From: an uncultured Candidatus Actinomarina sp.
GTDB lineage: Bacteria; Actinomycetota; Acidimicrobiia; Actinomarinales; Actinomarinaceae
Direction of reading: 5' to 3'
Length of the DNA stretch: 44,545 nucleotides
Assembly (NCBI GenBank): GCA_902510965.1
Contig: CABXDM010000005.1
Location: 1-44,545, forward strand
Each line of letters starts with the position of its first letter. The stretch's first letter is position 1. The translations under genes and the position numbers were made by a program. Positions 22,211 to 35,467 of the stretch are shown here, one piece after another. A model generated the notes under the pieces. The model was not told where the DNA came from and made no database searches. It saw only the letters and a program-made list of their open reading frames with translations.

Positions 22211-23482
22211 ATGAATCTAGTTGAAATAATCAATGAGCTGAACTTCAATGTGCTTTTCCCGTTGTTCATAGGGTTCAAGTTTCTCCTTGAAACCTATTTA
22301 AAACAGAGAAACATCCAATCTATGGAAGACAATAAAGAAGCTATTCCTGAGCGTTTTGTAGGTGTTGTGACAGAAGAGGAATACAAAAAATCAATTAATT
22401 ACAATACAGAGAGAATTCGATTTTCAATGCTTACAGCGCTTATTTCGGTTGGAGTTTTATTACTATTCACTACCGGCGGGTTGCTTAATTCTCTAACAAA
22501 AGTCGTCCAAGGAGTTACTCAATCAAATGTTGTAGGGATTATTTTACTTGGGTTATTTATTGTTTTAATTGATGAGATAATAGGAATTCCATTAGCTATA
22601 TACTCCACCTTCTATCTTGAGGAAAAGTATGGCTTTAATAAAACAACAACCAAAACATTTATTCAAGACTTAATTAAAAACCTTTTAATCTCTATTATTT
22701 TTTCTTCAACCCTATATGCTGTTGTAATTTCAATAATTGAACGACTTGGAGATAACTGGTGGATATATGCTTTTGTAGCAGTTTTTTTATTTCAAGCCAT
22801 AATATTTTATTTATATCCTGTTTTAATTCTTCCACTTTTCAATAAACTAGAGCCAATTACTGATGAAAAATTTAAAGAACCTATTGAGAAACTTCTCAAC
22901 AAAATTAACTTTAAAGCAAAAGGACTTTTTGTAATGGATGGCAGTTTAAGAAGCTCGCATGGAAATGCATTTTTTACAGGATTTGGAAATAACAAGAGAA
23001 TAGTTTTTTATGACACATTATTAGAAACAATTACTCCAAAAGAAATGGAGTCAATTCTTGGACATGAATTAGGCCACTATAAATTAGGGCACATTAGAAG
23101 AACGCTTATAAGTTCAATTTTCTTTGGTTTTCTTGGTTTTTATATTCTAGGCCAGGTTTTTATGGCTGATCAATTCTTTTATGGTCATGGTTTAGAGGAA
23201 ATAACTCTATATTCTAAATTCTTACTGTTCTATCTTGTTATCGGCTCATATACTTTTTTTACTAAACCTTTTACCTCCTATATTTCCAGACAAAGAGAAT
23301 TTGCTGCTGATGATTTTTCAATTGAGTACACAGAAGTTGAAAGTATGATTTCGGGACTTCTTAAGTTGAGTAAGGATAACTCTTCAAACCTAACACCGGA
23401 TAATTTATATAGCTCTTACTATTATTCTCACCCACCAATTGCAGAGCGTGTAAAAAGTTTAGAGGGTAAGAAAAAGAATTAA
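22211..23482 (+). CDS. M48 family (Ste24/CAAX prenyl endopeptidase-like) metalloprotease
   Basis: ILGHELGHYKLGH HExxH motif, polytopic, PFTSYISRQREFAADDFS. Confidence 0.92.
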   Translation: MNLVEIINELNFNVLFPLFIGFKFLLETYLKQRNIQSMEDNKEAIPERFVGVVTEEEYKKSINYNTERIRFSMLTALISVGVLLLFTTGGLLNSLTKVVQGVTQSNVVGIILLGLFIVLIDEIIGIPLAIYSTFYLEEKYGFNKTTTKTFIQDLIKNLLISIIFSSTLYAVVISIIERLGDNWWIYAFVAVFLFQAIIFYLYPVLILPLFNKLEPITDEKFKEPIEKLLNKINFKAKGLFVMDGSLRSSHGNAFFTGFGNNKRIVFYDTLLETITPKEMESILGHELGHYKLGHIRRTLISSIFFGFLGFYILGQVFMADQFFYGHGLEEITLYSKFLLFYLVIGSYTFFTKPFTSYISRQREFAADDFSIEYTEVESMISGLLKLSKDNSSNLTPDNLYSSYYYSHPPIAERVKSLEGKKKN

Positions 23483-24723
23483 GGAACGCTAAGTACGAAT
23501 AACGCTTGTAGGGTCAGACCGACTGTGATTAATAAGAAAATATACTGTGTTTTATCACTTTGATGATGTCCAAAAAGTTTTATAGCTAAATCATGCGCTA
23601 GAATTACACTCAACATATGTCCAGCTAAAGTTACGAAAACTTGTATACCCCACAAACCAACCGGAGTTAAGAAATAATTGATTGTAATCTCATCAACCCC
23701 AAACAGATTCCAACCAACACCATAAGGGTCATTCAACCTGTAAAGAATTGTCTGGGATTCATACAACAATAAACTTAAATAGTGGGTTACGTGATAAGCA
23801 AAAGCTATTGGAAGCATTGTATGTCCAAATAAAAGTGATACTTTATTTAGATCTTGTTGCTCTCCACTCACCCTCAATGCAAACCAACATGCAAACCTGT
23901 ATGAGCTTATGATGATTATGTTGATTGCAAAAAATGCAAATGTTGAAAAACCTATATCTAATGTTGAAGAACCAAATAAGTTGTACCAAAAAGTGGTACC
24001 TCTCAATCCATCATAAGTAACCGTTCCAATCATTAACAGTATGAAATACTCCATTCCTTTAAAGTTTGAGAGATTGGCTATATTTTCAAGCATATTTTTA
24101 TAAACTGGACGCGAAACAGTAACTCGTAGTTTTGCGTATAAGTGATGAAGTAGATGAAGAGGATCAACTTCAATCGAGGTCTTACCAAGTAAAACTCTTG
24201 ATCCTGTTGTTATAAGCAATAGAAGGATAAAGACTGTACCAATGTGAGCAGGATTACCTGGCTTTCTCCAGACCAATTCAAACCATGTTAGTCCCAAAAA
24301 CAAACCAGAAGCTACCCATACAGTAGATGGTTTTTCTTCAGCTGAGGGAAATAGGGATAAAGGATTAAATTTCGCGTATATATCACCAAAAACAAGTCCG
24401 AGTACGGGAACTCCTATCCATAAAAATACCCAGATAATAAGTGGAGTAATAGATGTCTTAGCTTCCTCATTTCCAATAAAACCTGGAAGGATTAGGAGTG
24501 ACAAAATAAGTCCACCGAACACTTTTCCCAAAATAGGGAGTTTTTGTTCAACAATCACTTCTTTTTGAATTAGAACAGATTGTTTCCAAGAAATTTTTAA
24601 GAAAACAAATGTTAAAACAATAACCAAAGCTGAAACATTCAAAACAGTTTCAAATGGAATTGGTAAATCTCCAACACTTCCTATTCCATGTTGAAAATTA
24701 TCTAAAGTTAGTAATAATTTCAT
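23479..24723 (-). CDS. Uncharacterised polytopic membrane protein
   Basis: 414 aa, many hydrophobic segments with His in or near them (GHTMLPIAFAYHVTHYLSLLL; TLAGHMLSVILAHDLAIKLFGHH). Confidence 0.75.
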   Translation of the reverse strand: MKLLLTLDNFQHGIGSVGDLPIPFETVLNVSALVIVLTFVFLKISWKQSVLIQKEVIVEQKLPILGKVFGGLILSLLILPGFIGNEEAKTSITPLIIWVFLWIGVPVLGLVFGDIYAKFNPLSLFPSAEEKPSTVWVASGLFLGLTWFELVWRKPGNPAHIGTVFILLLLITTGSRVLLGKTSIEVDPLHLLHHLYAKLRVTVSRPVYKNMLENIANLSNFKGMEYFILLMIGTVTYDGLRGTTFWYNLFGSSTLDIGFSTFAFFAINIIIISSYRFACWFALRVSGEQQDLNKVSLLFGHTMLPIAFAYHVTHYLSLLLYESQTILYRLNDPYGVGWNLFGVDEITINYFLTPVGLWGIQVFVTLAGHMLSVILAHDLAIKLFGHHQSDKTQYIFLLITVGLTLQALFVLSVP

Positions 24724-24964: not shown

Positions 24965-25405
24965 TTAGCTTTTACAATTTTCACACTGATCTGTGCATTT
25001 ACCAAACATTTCAACCCTGTGATCTGAAATCTTAAATTTAAATTTTTCCTCAATCTTTTTTATTTCTAAATCTAAAAAGTTTTCAAATTCATTACTCAGC
25101 TCAACGTCAATAATTTCGCCACAATCACTGCAGAATAGGTGGTGATGATGAGCACGGTCTTCAAGAACAAGTTCAATCACTGTCTGATTTTCTGGTGAAG
25201 TAAATTCATCTAAAATATCAATCTTCTTTAAATCGTTTAATACCCTATAAAGGGTGGACTTCGCAACCTTATTTTTTAATATAGCCTGAAGTTCATCAAG
25301 GGTAATAGGCCCTTTGTTTTCAAGAAGTGCTTCTAATACCAAAATTCTAGGATTAGTAATTGAAACATTATGATCTGATAATATCTGTTCTGAATTTTTC
25401 CCCAT
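24965..25405 (-). CDS. zur: Fur family regulator, probably Zur
   Basis: NPRILVLEALLENKGPITLDELQAIL...STLYRVLNDL, HHHHLFCSDCGEIIDV, CTDQCENC; next to znuA and Zur-like boxes. Confidence 0.88.
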   Translation of the reverse strand: MGKNSEQILSDHNVSITNPRILVLEALLENKGPITLDELQAILKNKVAKSTLYRVLNDLKKIDILDEFTSPENQTVIELVLEDRAHHHHLFCSDCGEIIDVELSNEFENFLDLEIKKIEEKFKFKISDHRVEMFGKCTDQCENCKS

Positions 25406-25435
25406 ATTTCGAGTATAGCAAATGGAGTTATAAAA

Positions 25436-25460
25436 ATAAATGAGAATTATTCTCATTTAT
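25436..25460. promoter_or_regulatory. Zur/Fur-type operator 1
   Basis: ATAAATGAGAATTATTCTCATTTAT, perfect 25-bp palindrome (12+1+12). Confidence 0.88.
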
Positions 25461-25474
25461 GCTTGACAAACTTT

Positions 25475-25497
25475 TAAATGAGACTTATTCTCATTTA
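25475..25497. promoter_or_regulatory. Zur/Fur-type operator 2
   Basis: TAAATGAGACTTATTCTCATTTA, palindrome with one mismatched pair; lies downstream of a TTGACA (25464-25469) over the putative -10 of znuA. Confidence 0.86.
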
Positions 25498-25527: not shown

Positions 25528-26574
25528 ATGAGAACTAGACCTATTTATAAAATTGGTGCAATTGTACTGTCTATAGTTTTAATCGCTTGCGGTACTGGTA
25601 GCACAACAGATGAAGCTACATCAGGCAAAATAAACGTTTTAGCTACTACTCCAATGCTCGGTGACTTTGTCAATCAAATAGGTGGTGAAAACATTAATTT
25701 AACTATTTTAATGCCACCGGAAGTAGACCCGCATACATATGATCCATCACCTCAAGATGCTACTAAAATTGCAGATGCCGACATAGTATTTTATGTTGGT
25801 CTTAAATATGAACCTTCAGCACTAGTTAAATTAGTAGAAAACACATCAAATAGTGATTCAGTTTTAGTCGAAGTCGGAGAAAGCGTCAATCCTATAGAAT
25901 TTAGTGAAGAAGGACATGATGACCATGATGACCACAAAGATCATGATGACCATGATGACCACAAAGATCATGATGACCATGATGAAGAAGGTCACGACGA
26001 TCATGATGAAGAAGGTCACGACGATCATGAAGGCCACGACCACGGTGCAGAAGATCCACACTTTTGGTTCGATCCGTTAAGAGTTGCAATGGCAGCTGAA
26101 TTAATGATGAATCAATTAATAGAGCTTGACCCAAGCAATTCTGAAGCATATAAAACTGCAGGAGATGCTTTTATCAGCGAGTTGAATGAATTAGATTCGA
26201 CAGTATCTGCATTAATTGAGACAGTACCTTCTAAAAACAAAAAACTTATAACAACTCACGAGTCTCTTGGCTATTTAGAAGCTAGATATGGTGTAGAAGT
26301 TCTTACTACAATCATTCCAAGCTTGACAACAGCTGATGAAATATCACCTGCAGAATTAGTAGATGTTCTTGATGTCATTGAAGATAACGACATAAAAGTT
26401 ATTTTTGTTGAGTCTGAAGCTCCATCTGTATACGCAGAGACAATAGCAGCAGAAGCTAACATAAAAACAGTTACAGGTTTATGGGTTGAGACTTTAAGAG
26501 AAAATCAATCATATGGTGATTGGTTAATGGAGAATGTTGAGTTAATTGTAGAAAACTTGGTTGACCTTCCTTAG
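25528..26574 (+). CDS. znuA: Zinc ABC transporter substrate-binding lipoprotein with His/Asp-rich loop
   Basis: LIACGTGS lipobox, PPEVDPHTYDPSPQDA, EEGHDDHDDHKDHDDH... loop, DPHFWFDP, ITTHESLGYLEARYG. Confidence 0.95.
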   Translation: MRTRPIYKIGAIVLSIVLIACGTGSTTDEATSGKINVLATTPMLGDFVNQIGGENINLTILMPPEVDPHTYDPSPQDATKIADADIVFYVGLKYEPSALVKLVENTSNSDSVLVEVGESVNPIEFSEEGHDDHDDHKDHDDHDDHKDHDDHDEEGHDDHDEEGHDDHEGHDHGAEDPHFWFDPLRVAMAAELMMNQLIELDPSNSEAYKTAGDAFISELNELDSTVSALIETVPSKNKKLITTHESLGYLEARYGVEVLTTIIPSLTTADEISPAELVDVLDVIEDNDIKVIFVESEAPSVYAETIAAEANIKTVTGLWVETLRENQSYGDWLMENVELIVENLVDLP

Positions 26575-26587
26575 GATGGTCACAGGG

Positions 26588-27374
26588 ATGAAAGTTAAAA
26601 AACATTACAAATAAAAGTCTTATAATTTCTGATGGATGTTGTGTTCAATATGGCGATGCACTAGCTCTCGATGATGTTACTTTTTCTATAACAGAAGGAA
26701 AGTTAGTAGCTGTAGTTGGACCTAACGGTGGTGGAAAATCTACACTGTTTAATGCTATGACTGGCATAACTCCCTTGTCACACGGATCTCTGACAATAAA
26801 GGGATTACAGCCAAGTGAGGCAAGAAGCTCTATTGGATATGTACCACAAAATAATCAAATAAACTGGAACTTTCCACTTTCAGTTAAACAAGTTGTCGAG
26901 ATGGGCTTGATAAGAAAAAATACCTTCAGTCCATTCTCTACTAAAAAAAATAACAAAATTGTGGAAGAGTCTTTGAGTAAAGTAGGTCTTCTTGAAAGAA
27001 TTGATGAAAATATAAACAACTTGTCGGGAGGACAAATACAAAGAGTTCTTTTAGCAAGAACATTAACTCAAGGTGCAGATATTTTATTACTTGATGAAGC
27101 ATTTAGCGCTGTTGACATTGGTGCTGAAGAAGATGTTATGAATATAATAAATGACATAAAACAAGATGGTAAAACTATCTTGATTGCCACGCATGACATC
27201 AACAACATTAAAGAAAAGTATGATGAGGTGTTATGTTTGAACAGACATTGTTGCGCATTTGGTGATCCTTCAGAGGTTCTTACTGAGGGTGTTATAGAGG
27301 AAATGTACGGATCACATAACCAGATACTTAAAGAGCATAGACCTGGAAGCCATGGTAACCAAAATGGGAATTGA
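26588..27374 (+). CDS. znuC: Zinc ABC transporter ATP-binding protein; 5' end appears frameshifted
   Basis: VVGPNGGGKSTLFNAMTG Walker A, NNLSGGQIQRVLLARTL signature, ILLLDEAFSAVD Walker B. The ORF-track ATG (26757) is inside Walker A; homology continues upstream to about 26595 in that frame but without ATG/GTG/TTG. 26588 is the likely original start in another frame. Confidence 0.85.
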
Positions 27375-28200
27375 GTTTTTAATAGAGCCTTTAAAATATG
27401 ATTTTATGGTACGTGCCTTAATAACGGCATTTTTATCTGGCATTATGCTTTCAGTACTAGGGTCTTTTACTATTAATAAAAATATGGGATTTATGGCTGA
27501 TGCTATGGCTCATGCAACCCTTCCAATTATCGCTGTAGGTGTGTTCTTTGGTTTCAGCATTTCCTCACTTGGAGCTCCAGCTGCAATAATAATTGCTTTA
27601 CTTCTTGGATTTATAATCAAAAATACCAATATTGGGGAAGATACCTCGATCGGAATAGTATTTTCCTCTTTTTTTGCTTTAGGCTTTGTTTTGATTTCAG
27701 TACTTGATGTATCAATTAACTTAGAGGACTTATTATTTGGTCAAATACTTGCAGTAAGCACACTCGATGTTTTTATAATTTTTGGACTATCTATTGTTGT
27801 CCTCAGTACTCTATTTTTCTTTTTTAAGCAGATTTTGTTTTATTCATTCGATCCTATAGGCGCTCAAGTGAGAGATTTAAATGTTACTTTTTTAAATTAT
27901 CTATTCTTAATTATATTATCTTTATCGATAGTAGGGTCTCTTCAAACTGTTGGCATCGTATTAGTTTTAAGTATGTTGTTAATTCCTGCTGCGGCAGCAA
28001 AGCTTGTCAGTCAAACATTTGTCAAATCAATAAAAATTAGTGCATTTTTTGGAGGAGTTTCTTCAGTAGCGGGATTGTATTTATCCTACTATTTCAACCT
28101 TCCCTCAGGTCCGACAATGTCTTTGGTTGCTTCCGGAATATTTGGGATATCTTTCATCTCAAAAAAGTTACAACTTAACAGAAAATTGATAAATTCTTAA
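27352..28200 (+). CDS. znuB: Zinc ABC transporter permease
   Basis: 282 aa polytopic; GFMADAMAHATLPIIAVGV, LQTVGIVLVLSMLLIPAAAAKLVS. Confidence 0.93.
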   Translation: MVTKMGIEFLIEPLKYDFMVRALITAFLSGIMLSVLGSFTINKNMGFMADAMAHATLPIIAVGVFFGFSISSLGAPAAIIIALLLGFIIKNTNIGEDTSIGIVFSSFFALGFVLISVLDVSINLEDLLFGQILAVSTLDVFIIFGLSIVVLSTLFFFFKQILFYSFDPIGAQVRDLNVTFLNYLFLIILSLSIVGSLQTVGIVLVLSMLLIPAAAAKLVSQTFVKSIKISAFFGGVSSVAGLYLSYYFNLPSGPTMSLVASGIFGISFISKKLQLNRKLINS

Positions 28201-28219: not shown

Positions 28220-28723
28220 ATGAAAAAAGTACTATTTCTATTTTGTTTTTTAATCTCTTGTTCAGCTAGCACTTCATCATCATCAACTGAACTAGAACCC
28301 AACAGTGAAGAAGAGTCTGTCATTGTAACAAATACCACTTTATCTAATAATGATACTCACGATGATCATGACCACCATGATGAAGAATCACATGATGACC
28401 ACGAGGAAGAAGCTCACGACGATCATGACGAAGAAACACCCAAACCTATTAGCTTGCTTCCATTTGATTATTACCTCATCGTTCCAGATGGTGTTCCAGA
28501 TAAACTCGAAGTTTTAAATTATAACTTAGGAGAAGAAACTGTAATACATTTTGAAGTTAGAGATATCGAAAAAGAAATTCATGTGCATGGATATGATATA
28601 CATTTTATGGTGTATCCAAATCAAGATAATATTCTAAAAATTGAACTAACCATAGCTGGTGAATTTGAAATTGAAGATCATGACAGTGGTTACGAATTTG
28701 CCAGACTTATTGTTTCACCCTGA
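28220..28723 (+). CDS. Lipoprotein with His/Asp-rich linker and cupredoxin-like domain
   Basis: LFCFLISCSAS lipobox; HDDHDHHDEESHDDHEEEAHDDHDEE; EIHVHGYDIHFMVYPNQDNILKIELTIAGEFEIEDHDSGYEFARLIVSP resembles cupredoxin-like C-terminus. Confidence 0.78.
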   Translation: MKKVLFLFCFLISCSASTSSSSTELEPNSEEESVIVTNTTLSNNDTHDDHDHHDEESHDDHEEEAHDDHDEETPKPISLLPFDYYLIVPDGVPDKLEVLNYNLGEETVIHFEVRDIEKEIHVHGYDIHFMVYPNQDNILKIELTIAGEFEIEDHDSGYEFARLIVSP

Positions 28724-29006: not shown

Positions 29007-29735
29007 ATGGCAAAAATTATAGAAGCTAATAATCTCACAAAAATATATGGAGAGAAGGAAACTAGTGTTACCGCTCTAGATGATATCAATATTGAATTTA
29101 GGGAAAATGAATTTACTGCAATAATGGGACCCTCTGGATCAGGGAAATCCACACTTTTACACTGTCTAGCAGGATTAGACAGGCCTTCCTCTGGAAAAAT
29201 ATTTTTAAAAGGGAATGATATTGCTACTTTAAATGACAAAGAATTAACAAAAATTAGAAGAGATAGTTTTGGATTCATTTTCCAAGCCTTCAATCTCATT
29301 CCAACACTTACAGCGGAAGAAAATATTACCCTACCGGCTTCAATAGCGGGAAGACAGCCCGATATGGAATGGGTAAAAGAAGTTGTGGAGACTGTAGACA
29401 TTGCAGACAGACTCAGTCATAGACCAAATGAACTATCAGGAGGACAGCAACAAAGAGTTGCAGCAGCTCGTGCAATGGCGACAAAGCCAGAGGTTATTTT
29501 TGCCGATGAACCCTCTGGTAACTTAGACTCAAAATCAAGTAGAGAGCTATTAACCTTTATGAAATCTGTTGTTGAAGAGTTAAATCAAACAATAGTTATG
29601 GTTACCCACGACCCATATGCAGCTTCATTTGCTGGAAGGGTTGTAATGTTAAAAGATGGAAAAATAGCTAGTGATTTAGAAAAACCAACACAAGAAGAAA
29701 TTGTTGCAGAGGTTACAGCTTTAACGAACGTATAA
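29007..29735 (+). CDS. ABC transporter ATP-binding protein (MacB/LolD type)
   Basis: MGPSGSGKSTLLHCLAGLDRPSSG, NELSGGQQQRVAAARAMATKPEVIFADEPSGNLD. Start likely 29007 (MAKIIEANNLTKIYG). Confidence 0.93.
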   Translation: MAKIIEANNLTKIYGEKETSVTALDDINIEFRENEFTAIMGPSGSGKSTLLHCLAGLDRPSSGKIFLKGNDIATLNDKELTKIRRDSFGFIFQAFNLIPTLTAEENITLPASIAGRQPDMEWVKEVVETVDIADRLSHRPNELSGGQQQRVAAARAMATKPEVIFADEPSGNLDSKSSRELLTFMKSVVEELNQTIVMVTHDPYAASFAGRVVMLKDGKIASDLEKPTQEEIVAEVTALTNV

Positions 29736-32347: not shown

Positions 32348-35300
32348 TTAAGGTGCAGGTGCTTCTCCACCAACAGGAGGTACTTCTCCACCACTAGGTG
32401 CAGGTGCAGGTGCAGGTGCAGGTGCAGGTGCAGGATCAGGATCAGGTGCAGGTGCTTCTCCACCAACAGGAGGTACTTCTCCACCACCCTGGTCTCCACC
32501 AACAGGAGGTACTTCTCCACCAGGAGGCACATTATCTTCTCCACCTACAGGAGGTACTTCTCCACCAGGAGGCACATTATCTTCTCCACCAGGAGGCACA
32601 TTATCTTCTCCACCAGGAGGCACTTCTCCACCTACAGGAGGTACTTCTCCACCAGGAGGAGGTACTTGTGAACAAGTAGGATCAGTAGGGTTTTCATCGC
32701 AATACTCTCCGGCAAATGCTACGAAATTATCTGTTTGGTTTTGAAATTCTTGAGCTTTATCAGTATCTCCCCAGAATCCTCCAGGGCTAGGAGGCGTCCC
32801 AGGAACAGTACCTTCTTCAGGAGGAGTTCCAAAAGCATCACCAGGTACATTTTGTTGCGTAAAACATAGTGGATCTTGAGGATTATCTACACAAAGTGTA
32901 TCTACGTCTTGTGGATTAAAGGCTTCAAATTCAACAATACCCTCATCTCCACCTGCAAACAATCCTGCTTCGGTTGGATTAGAATTTTGTTGACATTCTG
33001 GTTGGTTCACATTTACAGCATCATCACAATCAATTACTAAATAGTCATTGTGATTACCATATCTCTGAGAAGCTAATTCATCAGCACCCTCAATTGCGTT
33101 ATAGAAAACTCCCTGTTGAGCTAAATCAACATATGAATCATTGCTGAACATGTTTCCCAAGAACTCCCCTTTGTCCAAATTGCCTTCTCCGTAATAGTCT
33201 CTAAAACATTCTGGATGATTAGGATCTTGTTCACAAAAGTTAGGCTTTTCACCAACCTGAGCATTTGGATTTGGTGCAGCATATTGAGCTAATAAAGCAC
33301 CAGTTAGTGGACCTTGTAAACCACCAGTTTGTCCAAAGCTTGAATCACATTCAGGTGCTTCTGAAGCTTCATCGCAATATCCTGGAGCTACATATTCACC
33401 TCCTTGGAAAAGATCTGCAGGTCTGTAATTATCTCCACACTCTGTAGTTTCAGGATTTTCTTGACAGAATTCTGGAGGTGGACCTGTTAACTCCTGAGGA
33501 CCTCCATAAATATCAAACATATCATCTCTATCTAATGCAAGACCTGTTGCATCTCCAACATGTTGATGGAAAAAATCTCCTTGACCACTACACATTGCAT
33601 CGTCTGGGTACTGACTGCAATCTACGGGTTCCCAATTATCACCTAAAACATTTTCATCATAAACATGAAAAAATGCATATACAGCTTGGCTATTTCCACC
33701 CATACATTCAGGAGAATCTGGGCTATCTGCACAGAAAGAGTCGTCTTTAGGACCCCCACCAAAAATCATTTTTCCTGCATCGGTTCCACCTTCTAGACAA
33801 CCGTCAGGATTAGCTTCACAATATGCCCCTCCTGCATCAAAAGCATCACCTACAAATTCTGGACCACTTGCGCATTCAGGTAGCCATGTTTGTTCTGTAC
33901 AGTATTCTGGCTGTATATTATTTTCTGTAAACGTATATTCAAAACCCATTCCCTGAACCATGTCTTCAACAAAATGGTTTCCTGCAAAAGCCTGAGCTAA
34001 AAATTCTGGAGGAGGAGAACCAGCAGCACACACAGTATCATTTGGGTTATCGGCACAAAATGTTCCTTCAGCAAATTCATCTTGACCAGCATTAACAAAC
34101 ATATTTGCTGCAGCTAAGGCCATAGCTGAGGCAACGTCCCCTGTTTCAGCCAGTTCATTCACAGCATTGGTGTCAGCAGATATAAACTGCATCATTCCAT
34201 GTTGTGCTCTAAATCCGCCATTTTCATTATGATCAAAACCTAAATTTTGAAGAGAGTCATTTTCATGAGCTGAAGCAGCATCTGAAAAAGTATTAATAAA
34301 TTCTGACATAGGAGGAAGCTCTTGTGCGACACCATCAGTAGGAGCTTCCTGCCAATTTTCATTTATAAACTCTTGGACCACTTCTTCAGTAACAGCAATT
34401 TCTGCAACAGCTTCAGTCAATATTTGGACTGATTCAGTAATATCTTCTGGAGCTCCAGCTGCTGTAAGTAGTGTTTGAGCTAATTCCATTCTGTCCGTAT
34501 CACCTTCAGTAAATACGGCATTTGCCGCATTATCTGCTGTTAAATCTTTAGTACCATCTGCTAAATTTTCTTGAGTTTCTGCTTTACATGTATAGCTACA
34601 ATCACCTTCCATGTTTGAAACAAATTCATCGACTATTAATGCTACTGAAGATGAGTCCTCTTCCATCCATCCAGACCCCCCAGTGGTACCACTTCCAAGT
34701 TCTGTACCAGCTGTTTGTGAGACGGCAACAAGTACAGGGTTTCCATCAACATCAGGCAATAGCTCACTAAAAACAGCATCATCACTCTCTTCACCACCTT
34801 CTAACACAGTGCTAGTTGCAGAAAAAGTGGATACATCATATGCAAAAACTCCTTCTGTTCCATGAACAGAGAGTTCTGCTGTAGGGGTTACAATTTTTGC
34901 TAATGAGGCATTAAGACCTTCACTGACTATGTCATAGGCAATACTTCCAGAAATAACATCTACAGTTAGAACTCTCGCACCGGCCTCTTCGTCATAATCA
35001 AAACTTCTTATATTAACTACTGAATTTCCCCCCATCAACAATGAAGAACCATCCTCGAATGTCATTTGAGCTGTTCCATTATCAGCCGTTCGAACCTTTA
35101 CACCCATATCAAGACTTACAATTTCTGTAAGAACTTCCCAATCCGTTGAAGTGCTAGTAAGGATTCCCGTTGCTCCAATAAGAGGCTTAAGTAGAATCTG
35201 AGGAACGACCAGATCAGCCTCATTAAAAACTTCAACTTTACTTGGAGCAAATGTTGTTGTCGTACTAGTAGTAGTGGTTTCTTCTACTATTGTTGTAGTA

Positions 35301-35380
35301 GTAGTGTCATCACTACCGCCACACATTGAAACTATCATGGAGAGCATAATAAAACTGATTTTGAACTTTTTTATACTCAT
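32348..35380 (-). CDS. Large secreted lipoprotein: FecR domain, paired-Cys repeats, Pro/Gly-rich tail
   Basis: Signal/lipobox FIMLSMIVSMCGGSDD, Thr-rich linker, FecR-like VRTADNGTAQMTFEDGSSLLMGGNSVVNI...AELSVHGTEGVFAYDVS, 11 C-x(6-10)-C modules, PPGGE / PAPAPA tail. Start moved to the third Met (35380). Confidence 0.85.
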   Translation of the reverse strand: MSIKKFKISFIMLSMIVSMCGGSDDTTTTTIVEETTTTSTTTTFAPSKVEVFNEADLVVPQILLKPLIGATGILTSTSTDWEVLTEIVSLDMGVKVRTADNGTAQMTFEDGSSLLMGGNSVVNIRSFDYDEEAGARVLTVDVISGSIAYDIVSEGLNASLAKIVTPTAELSVHGTEGVFAYDVSTFSATSTVLEGGEESDDAVFSELLPDVDGNPVLVAVSQTAGTELGSGTTGGSGWMEEDSSSVALIVDEFVSNMEGDCSYTCKAETQENLADGTKDLTADNAANAVFTEGDTDRMELAQTLLTAAGAPEDITESVQILTEAVAEIAVTEEVVQEFINENWQEAPTDGVAQELPPMSEFINTFSDAASAHENDSLQNLGFDHNENGGFRAQHGMMQFISADTNAVNELAETGDVASAMALAAANMFVNAGQDEFAEGTFCADNPNDTVCAAGSPPPEFLAQAFAGNHFVEDMVQGMGFEYTFTENNIQPEYCTEQTWLPECASGPEFVGDAFDAGGAYCEANPDGCLEGGTDAGKMIFGGGPKDDSFCADSPDSPECMGGNSQAVYAFFHVYDENVLGDNWEPVDCSQYPDDAMCSGQGDFFHQHVGDATGLALDRDDMFDIYGGPQELTGPPPEFCQENPETTECGDNYRPADLFQGGEYVAPGYCDEASEAPECDSSFGQTGGLQGPLTGALLAQYAAPNPNAQVGEKPNFCEQDPNHPECFRDYYGEGNLDKGEFLGNMFSNDSYVDLAQQGVFYNAIEGADELASQRYGNHNDYLVIDCDDAVNVNQPECQQNSNPTEAGLFAGGDEGIVEFEAFNPQDVDTLCVDNPQDPLCFTQQNVPGDAFGTPPEEGTVPGTPPSPGGFWGDTDKAQEFQNQTDNFVAFAGEYCDENPTDPTCSQVPPPGGEVPPVGGEVPPGGEDNVPPGGEDNVPPGGEVPPVGGEDNVPPGGEVPPVGGDQGGGEVPPVGGEAPAPDPDPAPAPAPAPAPAPSGGEVPPVGGEAPAP
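32351..32665. repeat. Low-complexity imperfect tandem repeats encoding the C-terminal tail of the FecR lipoprotein
   Basis: Repeated ccaccaggaggcacattatcttct, ccaacaggaggtacttct and ggtgca units. Confidence 0.9.
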
Positions 35381-35467
35381 GTAGTTCATAATATATGTAT
35401 AGCTTGAAGAATTCCTGTAATTCAATGATTATTTACTACTAATCATAAGGATAAGTAAAATAGACTC

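Follow-up and report, generated by a model that had tools for sequence, protein, structure and literature searches.

We analysed a 44,545-nucleotide (nt) stretch of DNA, hereafter the window, from an uncultured Candidatus Actinomarina sp. (assembly GCA_902510965.1, contig CABXDM010000005.1, positions 1 to 44,545), which is contig 5 of an 810-kb genome that is 67% complete. The subject is the gene at 28220..28723, whose product we label CUP, and the metal-importer genes that precede it. A first-pass annotation of the sequence had placed this gene fourth in a zinc-type importer operon and had described its product as a lipoprotein with a His/Asp-rich linker, and both descriptions hold. The open reading frame (ORF) starts 19 bp 3' of the end of znuB in the same direction, and encodes 167 amino acids (aa) including the lipobox LISC and the linker HDDHDHHDEESHDDHEEEAHDDHDEE. 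The features of the locus are as follows; genomes (G) and loci (L) are numbered below where they must be told apart.

23479..24723, minus strand: TM414, a multi-helix membrane protein flanking the cassette described below; class-wide partner of CUP
24965..25456, minus strand: Fur-family regulator, divergent from ZnuA (PF01475, E 9e-18)
25441..25455, no strand assigned: regulator box TGAGAATTATTCTCA, across the genus almost exclusive to this locus, where it precedes both znuACB and ZIP versions
25479..25493, plus strand: second box TGAGACTTATTCTCA
25528..26574, plus strand: ZnuA-type solute-binding protein with a long His/Asp loop (PF01297, E 4e-71)
26595..27374, plus strand: ZnuC-type ATPase, start codon uncertain (PF00005, E 1.7e-27)
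27352..28200, plus strand: ZnuB-type permease (PF00950, E 9e-64)
28220..28723, plus strand: CUP, a lipoprotein with a His/Asp-rich linker and a C-terminal cupredoxin-like domain (from the ORF, lipobox, AlphaFold 2 model and PDB folds)
28349..28435, plus strand: His/Asp/Glu-rich linker (NDTHDDH...HDDHDEE), whose counterpart in relatives forms a recombination joint
28472..28720, plus strand: cupredoxin-like domain with invariant HxH, a YD motif (HVHGYD) and an Actinomarina-only EDH at the ligand loop
28763..28827, no strand assigned: terminator-like hairpins 3' of CUP, from a consensus scan only
29007..29735, plus strand: ATP-binding cassette (ABC) ATPase, right flank of the cassette; position kept in all genus loci that reach that far

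The hairpins are consistent with an operon that ends after CUP. The nearest PDB chain to the ZnuA-type protein is the zinc ZnuA 1pq4, and its third ligand position is His, not Glu; PsaA-type manganese proteins use Glu as third metal ligand where ZnuA has His. With this His in ZnuA, an ABC-3 permease and an ATPase, the host operon is predicted to encode a cluster A-I zinc importer. We found no paralogue of CUP in its own genome.

The two boxes are near-identical palindromes at the start of the divergent genes. Box TGAGAMYWATTCTCA occurs in 30 of the 42 genomes that make up our genus sample, nearly always at the zinc locus, and both stray matches that were examined fall within reading frames. 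Two Fur-family genes are present in the window genome in all, and most genomes of the genus also have a second one elsewhere. The second gene of the window genome (contig 4, L115 4567-6526) lies beside CbiQ/CbiO-type energy-coupling factor (ECF) importer-like genes, which possibly provide alternative metal uptake.

Fold, ligands and relatives of the CUP domain

From its N terminus, CUP consists of the lipobox, a spacer, the His/Asp linker and a beta-rich domain of ~85 residues. This domain had been called cupredoxin-like from its sequence, and the assignment is now backed by both a profile search and structure prediction. Searched against the PDB, a profile built from 31 relatives matched CuA domains, laccases and nitrosocyanin. 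The AlphaFold 2 model of the domain is an eight-strand sandwich (predicted local distance difference test (pLDDT) score 91.6), and its best PDB folds are CuA domains, FtrB (template modelling (TM) score 0.73/0.79), a Bacillus Cupredoxin_1 protein, EfeO and CupA. Of these structural neighbours, the Bacillus protein was solved with zinc or copper, and FtrB is an iron-uptake protein.

Residues HxH, Y, G, E and E are invariant across the CUP alignment and D is nearly so, and the first His of the HxH aligns with a CuA-domain His. At the Cys-equivalent position, which was read from motifs aligned at the penultimate-strand Gly and not from superposition, all seven Actinomarina rows have Asp84 followed by His85 (numbered in the modelled fragment), and all 24 others have Leu or Phe. 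The ligand loop is without Cys and without a conserved Met in all 31 aligned copies. CUP therefore has the fold of the type-1 copper cupredoxins but not their His-Cys-His(-Met) ligand set. No curated Pfam or NCBIfam family matched the window's domain, and some relatives give weak cupredoxin-type matches. The best family match of the whole protein is ZrgA, to which only the signal, the spacer and the His stretch contribute, all outside the cupredoxin domain. We rejected ZrgA membership, as the scores were 21.8 bits against a cut-off of 185 (NCBIfam) and 16.1 against 27.4 (Pfam).

In a sample of the class, 75 of 296 genomes carry the CUP domain. We inspected 32 loci from outside Actinomarina, a few species being included twice, and a TM414 homologue is the next gene in 24 of them. 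Certain His, Asp and Glu positions of TM414 are invariant; despite a good model (pLDDT 85), the protein matched nothing in Pfam, NCBIfam, PDB sequences or PDB folds. At these loci no ZIP, ZnuA or ZnuB relative lies beside the CUP domain. Because these importer relatives are absent there and TM414 is a class-wide neighbour, it appears that an older CUP-TM414 pair became tied to zinc importers in Actinomarina. Three CUP proteins from outside Actinomarina (L033 5837-6598, L053 and L065) bear an extra N-terminal His-containing module (GxGHxHxxxDG), which in one occurs twice in tandem.

ZIP fusion, cassette exchange and the linker

Genomes of the genus encode ZnuA in 34 of 42 cases and CUP in nine. 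Five of them (G000, G025, G061, G002 and G022, the last cut by a contig end) combine znuACB with CUP. The znuACB-cupredoxin adjacency, whose conservation the first-pass annotation had proposed as a check, is kept in only 5 of the 34 ZnuA-bearing genomes, with CUP missing from the other 29. The four CUP genomes without ZnuA (G001, G008, G014 and G020) are exactly the four with a ZIP-family gene. In these, the same chromosomal slot encodes a ZIP part (PF02535, a BbZIP homologue), followed by a His-rich linker and a C-terminal CUP domain. The arrangement is intact as a single ORF of 387 aa in G014 and of 528 aa in G001, and in the in-frame ORFs the CUP part has no signal peptide of its own. The upstream box is common to the znuACB and ZIP versions. 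In the literature that we searched there is no ZIP-cupredoxin fusion, and we found nothing relevant on zinc in Actinomarina.

Two further features of the ZIP loci were seen. The 528-aa protein (L028 3342-4928) has a Gmad2 domain between its ZIP part and its CUP domain. In G008 and G020 a break interrupts the ZIP-CUP frame, inside the His repeats or where they end (L025 6400-6700 and L026 8900-9280, the latter on the minus strand; isolates AG-313-L14 and AG-410-G16, single-cell assemblies); it reflects either an error of assembly or a genuine loss of the fusion.

Every recovered genus locus, contig permitting, has the order CAAX, TM414, Fur, importer, (CUP), ABC, permease. Sequence divergence indicates that Fur, importer and CUP move together as one cassette, which is exchanged through recombination while the flanks on either side are conserved. 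Between G025 and G061, synonymous divergence (dS) is 0-0.02 for Fur, ZnuA, ZnuC, ZnuB and CUP, whereas in the flanks it is 2.75 for CAAX, saturated for TM414 and 0.8 for PERM. The reverse is seen between the window and G025, where flanks are close (CAAX 0.28, TM414 0.19, PERM 0.40) and the cassette is diverged (Fur 1.09, ZnuB 1.44, CUP 1.47). Additionally, G013 and G060, which have znuACB without CUP, nest among the ZIP-CUP genomes in the permease tree and have the same downstream genes, so importer and CUP were replaced jointly.

One breakpoint lies inside the CUP gene. Measured in 60-base steps, the identity of G025 and G002 is 88-100% over the stretch that runs from znuC to the CUP leader and linker; it then falls to 40-55% inside the gene, the drop being within the linker, and the downstream ABC gene is 68-83% identical. 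Most of the compared genomes are draft assemblies, some of them metagenomic, in which a chimera at the repeat could mimic such a breakpoint; that G025 and G061 come from different records argues against chimeric assembly. The exchange resembles replacement flexible genomic islands (PMC4033161), in which near-identical clusters occur in divergent genomes and are exchanged between conserved flanks, and differs in its content, here a cassette for metal uptake. A single order-wide island is described in the Actinomarinales genome paper, which does not mention zinc (PMC7771536). New elements are the fusion of ZIP to CUP, the exchange of importer cassettes, the linker joint and the unnamed class-wide pair.

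The linker had also been proposed to derive from znuA by duplication or exchange, on the strength of a shared 15-mer. The word TCACGACGATCATGA does occur at 25992, 26016 and 28414, its only positions in the window, and no such 15-mer is expected from dinucleotide shuffles, a null that ignores protein. However, the znuA loop and the CUP linker both encode HDDH/DEE repeats, and shuffling the synonymous codons of the linker yields a shared word of at least 15 nt in 48% of trials (P 0.48) and an ungapped match as good as that observed in 13-17% (P 0.13-0.17). The DNA word is thus genuinely shared, as a consequence of the H/D/E peptide that loop and linker have in common. Against ZnuA loops from two other genomes, moreover, the window linker scores 34 and 37, at least as high as against its own ZnuA (33). 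Although the exact word is present three times, these results leave the proposed origin unsupported, and we consider it highly improbable.

CUP linkers are highly variable in length and sequence. A DNA link between the window linker and the ZIP linker of G020 was considered and rejected, as its P of 0.01 came from one of ~24 comparisons and is not significant once corrected. The ZnuA genes at L023 and L029 have N runs inside the His loop; because the repeat leaves such assembly gaps, loop lengths in draft ZnuA genes are unreliable.

Proposed role and alternative explanations

We propose that CUP is an extracytoplasmic accessory zinc-capture domain of a zinc-uptake cassette, serving unrelated importers, a reading to which we assign a probability of roughly 0.58. 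CUP would be tethered to the membrane, by its lipoprotein anchor in the window and by joining to the ZIP importer in four relatives. The His/Asp tail may capture Zn2+ close to the membrane and buffer it there. The cupredoxin domain is without Cys/Met copper ligands and in Actinomarina offers Asp-His and the invariant HxH; it would hold the metal and pass it to the importer intake, which would be the His loop in ZnuA and the outward-facing mouth in ZIP. ZIP C-termini face outward and the lipoprotein is anchored outside, so both forms would put the CUP domain at the importer's outer mouth.

Its pairing with two unrelated importers suggests that CUP is a capture and delivery part, not a subunit of one transporter. 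Zinc is favoured over other metals by the third-ligand His of ZnuA, the ZIP family and a box private to the locus. An iron role for the znuACB-CUP operon is less likely, since Actinomarinales have another gene cluster for Fe3+ transport, which includes a repressor of its own (PMC7771536). Of the earlier description of CUP as a periplasmic zinc chaperone or buffer, extracytoplasmic zinc handling is likely and is strengthened by the ZIP fusion; "periplasmic" is doubtful, because the Actinomarinales genome paper deems an outer membrane unlikely (PMC7771536). More tentatively, and at somewhat less than even odds, CUP may be a transporter-independent, cupredoxin-derived zinc-capture module for ABC and ZIP importers, with a His-rich linker that serves as a tail for metal and also as the joint at which recombination re-pairs importer and domain.

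Several observations weigh against a role in zinc capture. CUP is dispensable, as 29 of the 34 ZnuA-bearing genus genomes have znuACB without it. Outside Actinomarina the domain adjoins TM414, not zinc importers, and most copies there are without the His tail. One CUP relative lies beside a CtaG-like gene, a hint of copper. Additionally, the regulator appears to resemble Fur at least as much as Zur, its top PDB and NCBIfam matches being Fur proteins, with Zur ranking lower.

CUP might instead be a copper protein that guards the importer from copper mis-metallation or keeps an ancestral copper role with TM414. This would fit the cupredoxin fold, the CuA domains and laccases that are its nearest profile matches, the CtaG-like neighbour, and the finding that FtrB, also without HHC ligands, binds Cu2+ via Asp118 (PMC11966278). 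With ligand-loop Cys and Met missing from 31 of 31 aligned copies, and with CUP associated with two zinc-type importers and a Fur-family box, we judge a copper role unlikely. We consider improbable a positional hitch-hiking in which importer cassettes were inserted between the ancestral neighbours CUP and TM414 and CUP has no part in zinc uptake. The class-wide adjacency of the pair (24 of 32 loci), and the fact that TM414 still adjoins the cassette in the window, speak for such an event. However, in-frame ORFs of 387 and 528 aa join CUP to ZIP without a separate signal peptide, and CUP travels with the importer, G025 and G061 having the same CUP and different TM414; in G013 and G060, among the ZIP-CUP genomes, znuACB replaces ZIP and CUP together. 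It is also rather improbable that the His/Asp tail alone matters, as a zinc sponge on a passive cupredoxin scaffold. Linkers do vary widely, and the ZrgA His region binds extra zinc and is not essential (PMC9820375), yet the G001 and G002 copies, whose linkers are short or weak, maintain the invariant HxH, Y and E of the domain.

Our preferred reading, accessory zinc capture, has partial parallels in known systems. Few extracytoplasmic zinc chaperones are known, each with its own fold. AdcA/ZinT-type Gram-positive zinc lipoproteins have an extra zinc-recruiting domain at the surface, the role proposed here for CUP, and ZinT is a lipocalin-like domain whose fold is unrelated to that of CUP. AztD (AztABCD, Paracoccus/Citrobacter) is a zinc chaperone of the periplasm whose gene accompanies those of a cluster A-I zinc importer (PMC6689063), as the CUP gene lies beside a predicted one (25528-28200). 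Both are extra extracytoplasmic proteins in a zinc ABC operon; AztD is a lipoprotein in Gram-positives, and it has been proposed to pass its zinc to the binding protein's flexible loop (PMC6689063). In contrast, AztD folds as a beta-propeller on which two zinc sites have been mapped, and CUP combines a cupredoxin sandwich with a His tail and is also found joined to ZIP.

The FtrABCD iron importer has in FtrB (8vuk, PMC11966278) a small cupredoxin that is, like CUP, without HHC and that acts as an accessory to a metal importer, as CUP would; its ligand-loop Asp may have a counterpart in the Actinomarina copies of CUP. It differs in serving an iron permease as a proposed ferrous oxidase; no link of FtrB to ZnuABC or ZIP is reported, and the sections consulted (PMC11966278) describe no His tail. 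The Asp84-His85 of Actinomarina is also spaced unlike FtrB D118/H121, and the neighbours of CUP are an ABC-3 permease or ZIP, not an Ftr1-type iron permease. ZrgA/PA4063 (PMC9820375, PMC8561739) shares with CUP a His-rich stretch, a compact beta-rich domain and a zinc ABC operon, and differs in having a ferredoxin-like fold and in being itself the binding protein.

If our proposal is correct, a cupredoxin without copper ligands that is common to ABC and ZIP importers would represent a further zinc-chaperone solution, and zinc hand-over could be independent of importer type. Whole-cassette swaps in this streamlined surface-ocean genus suggest changing selection on metal acquisition. The CUP domain also flags an uncharacterised actinobacterial pair, CUP and TM414, the latter a membrane partner without a described family or a solved fold match.

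Elsewhere in the window, 32348-35425 on the minus strand encodes a Thr-rich, lipoprotein-like protein of 1025 aa with C-terminal tandem GGEVPPVGG repeats.
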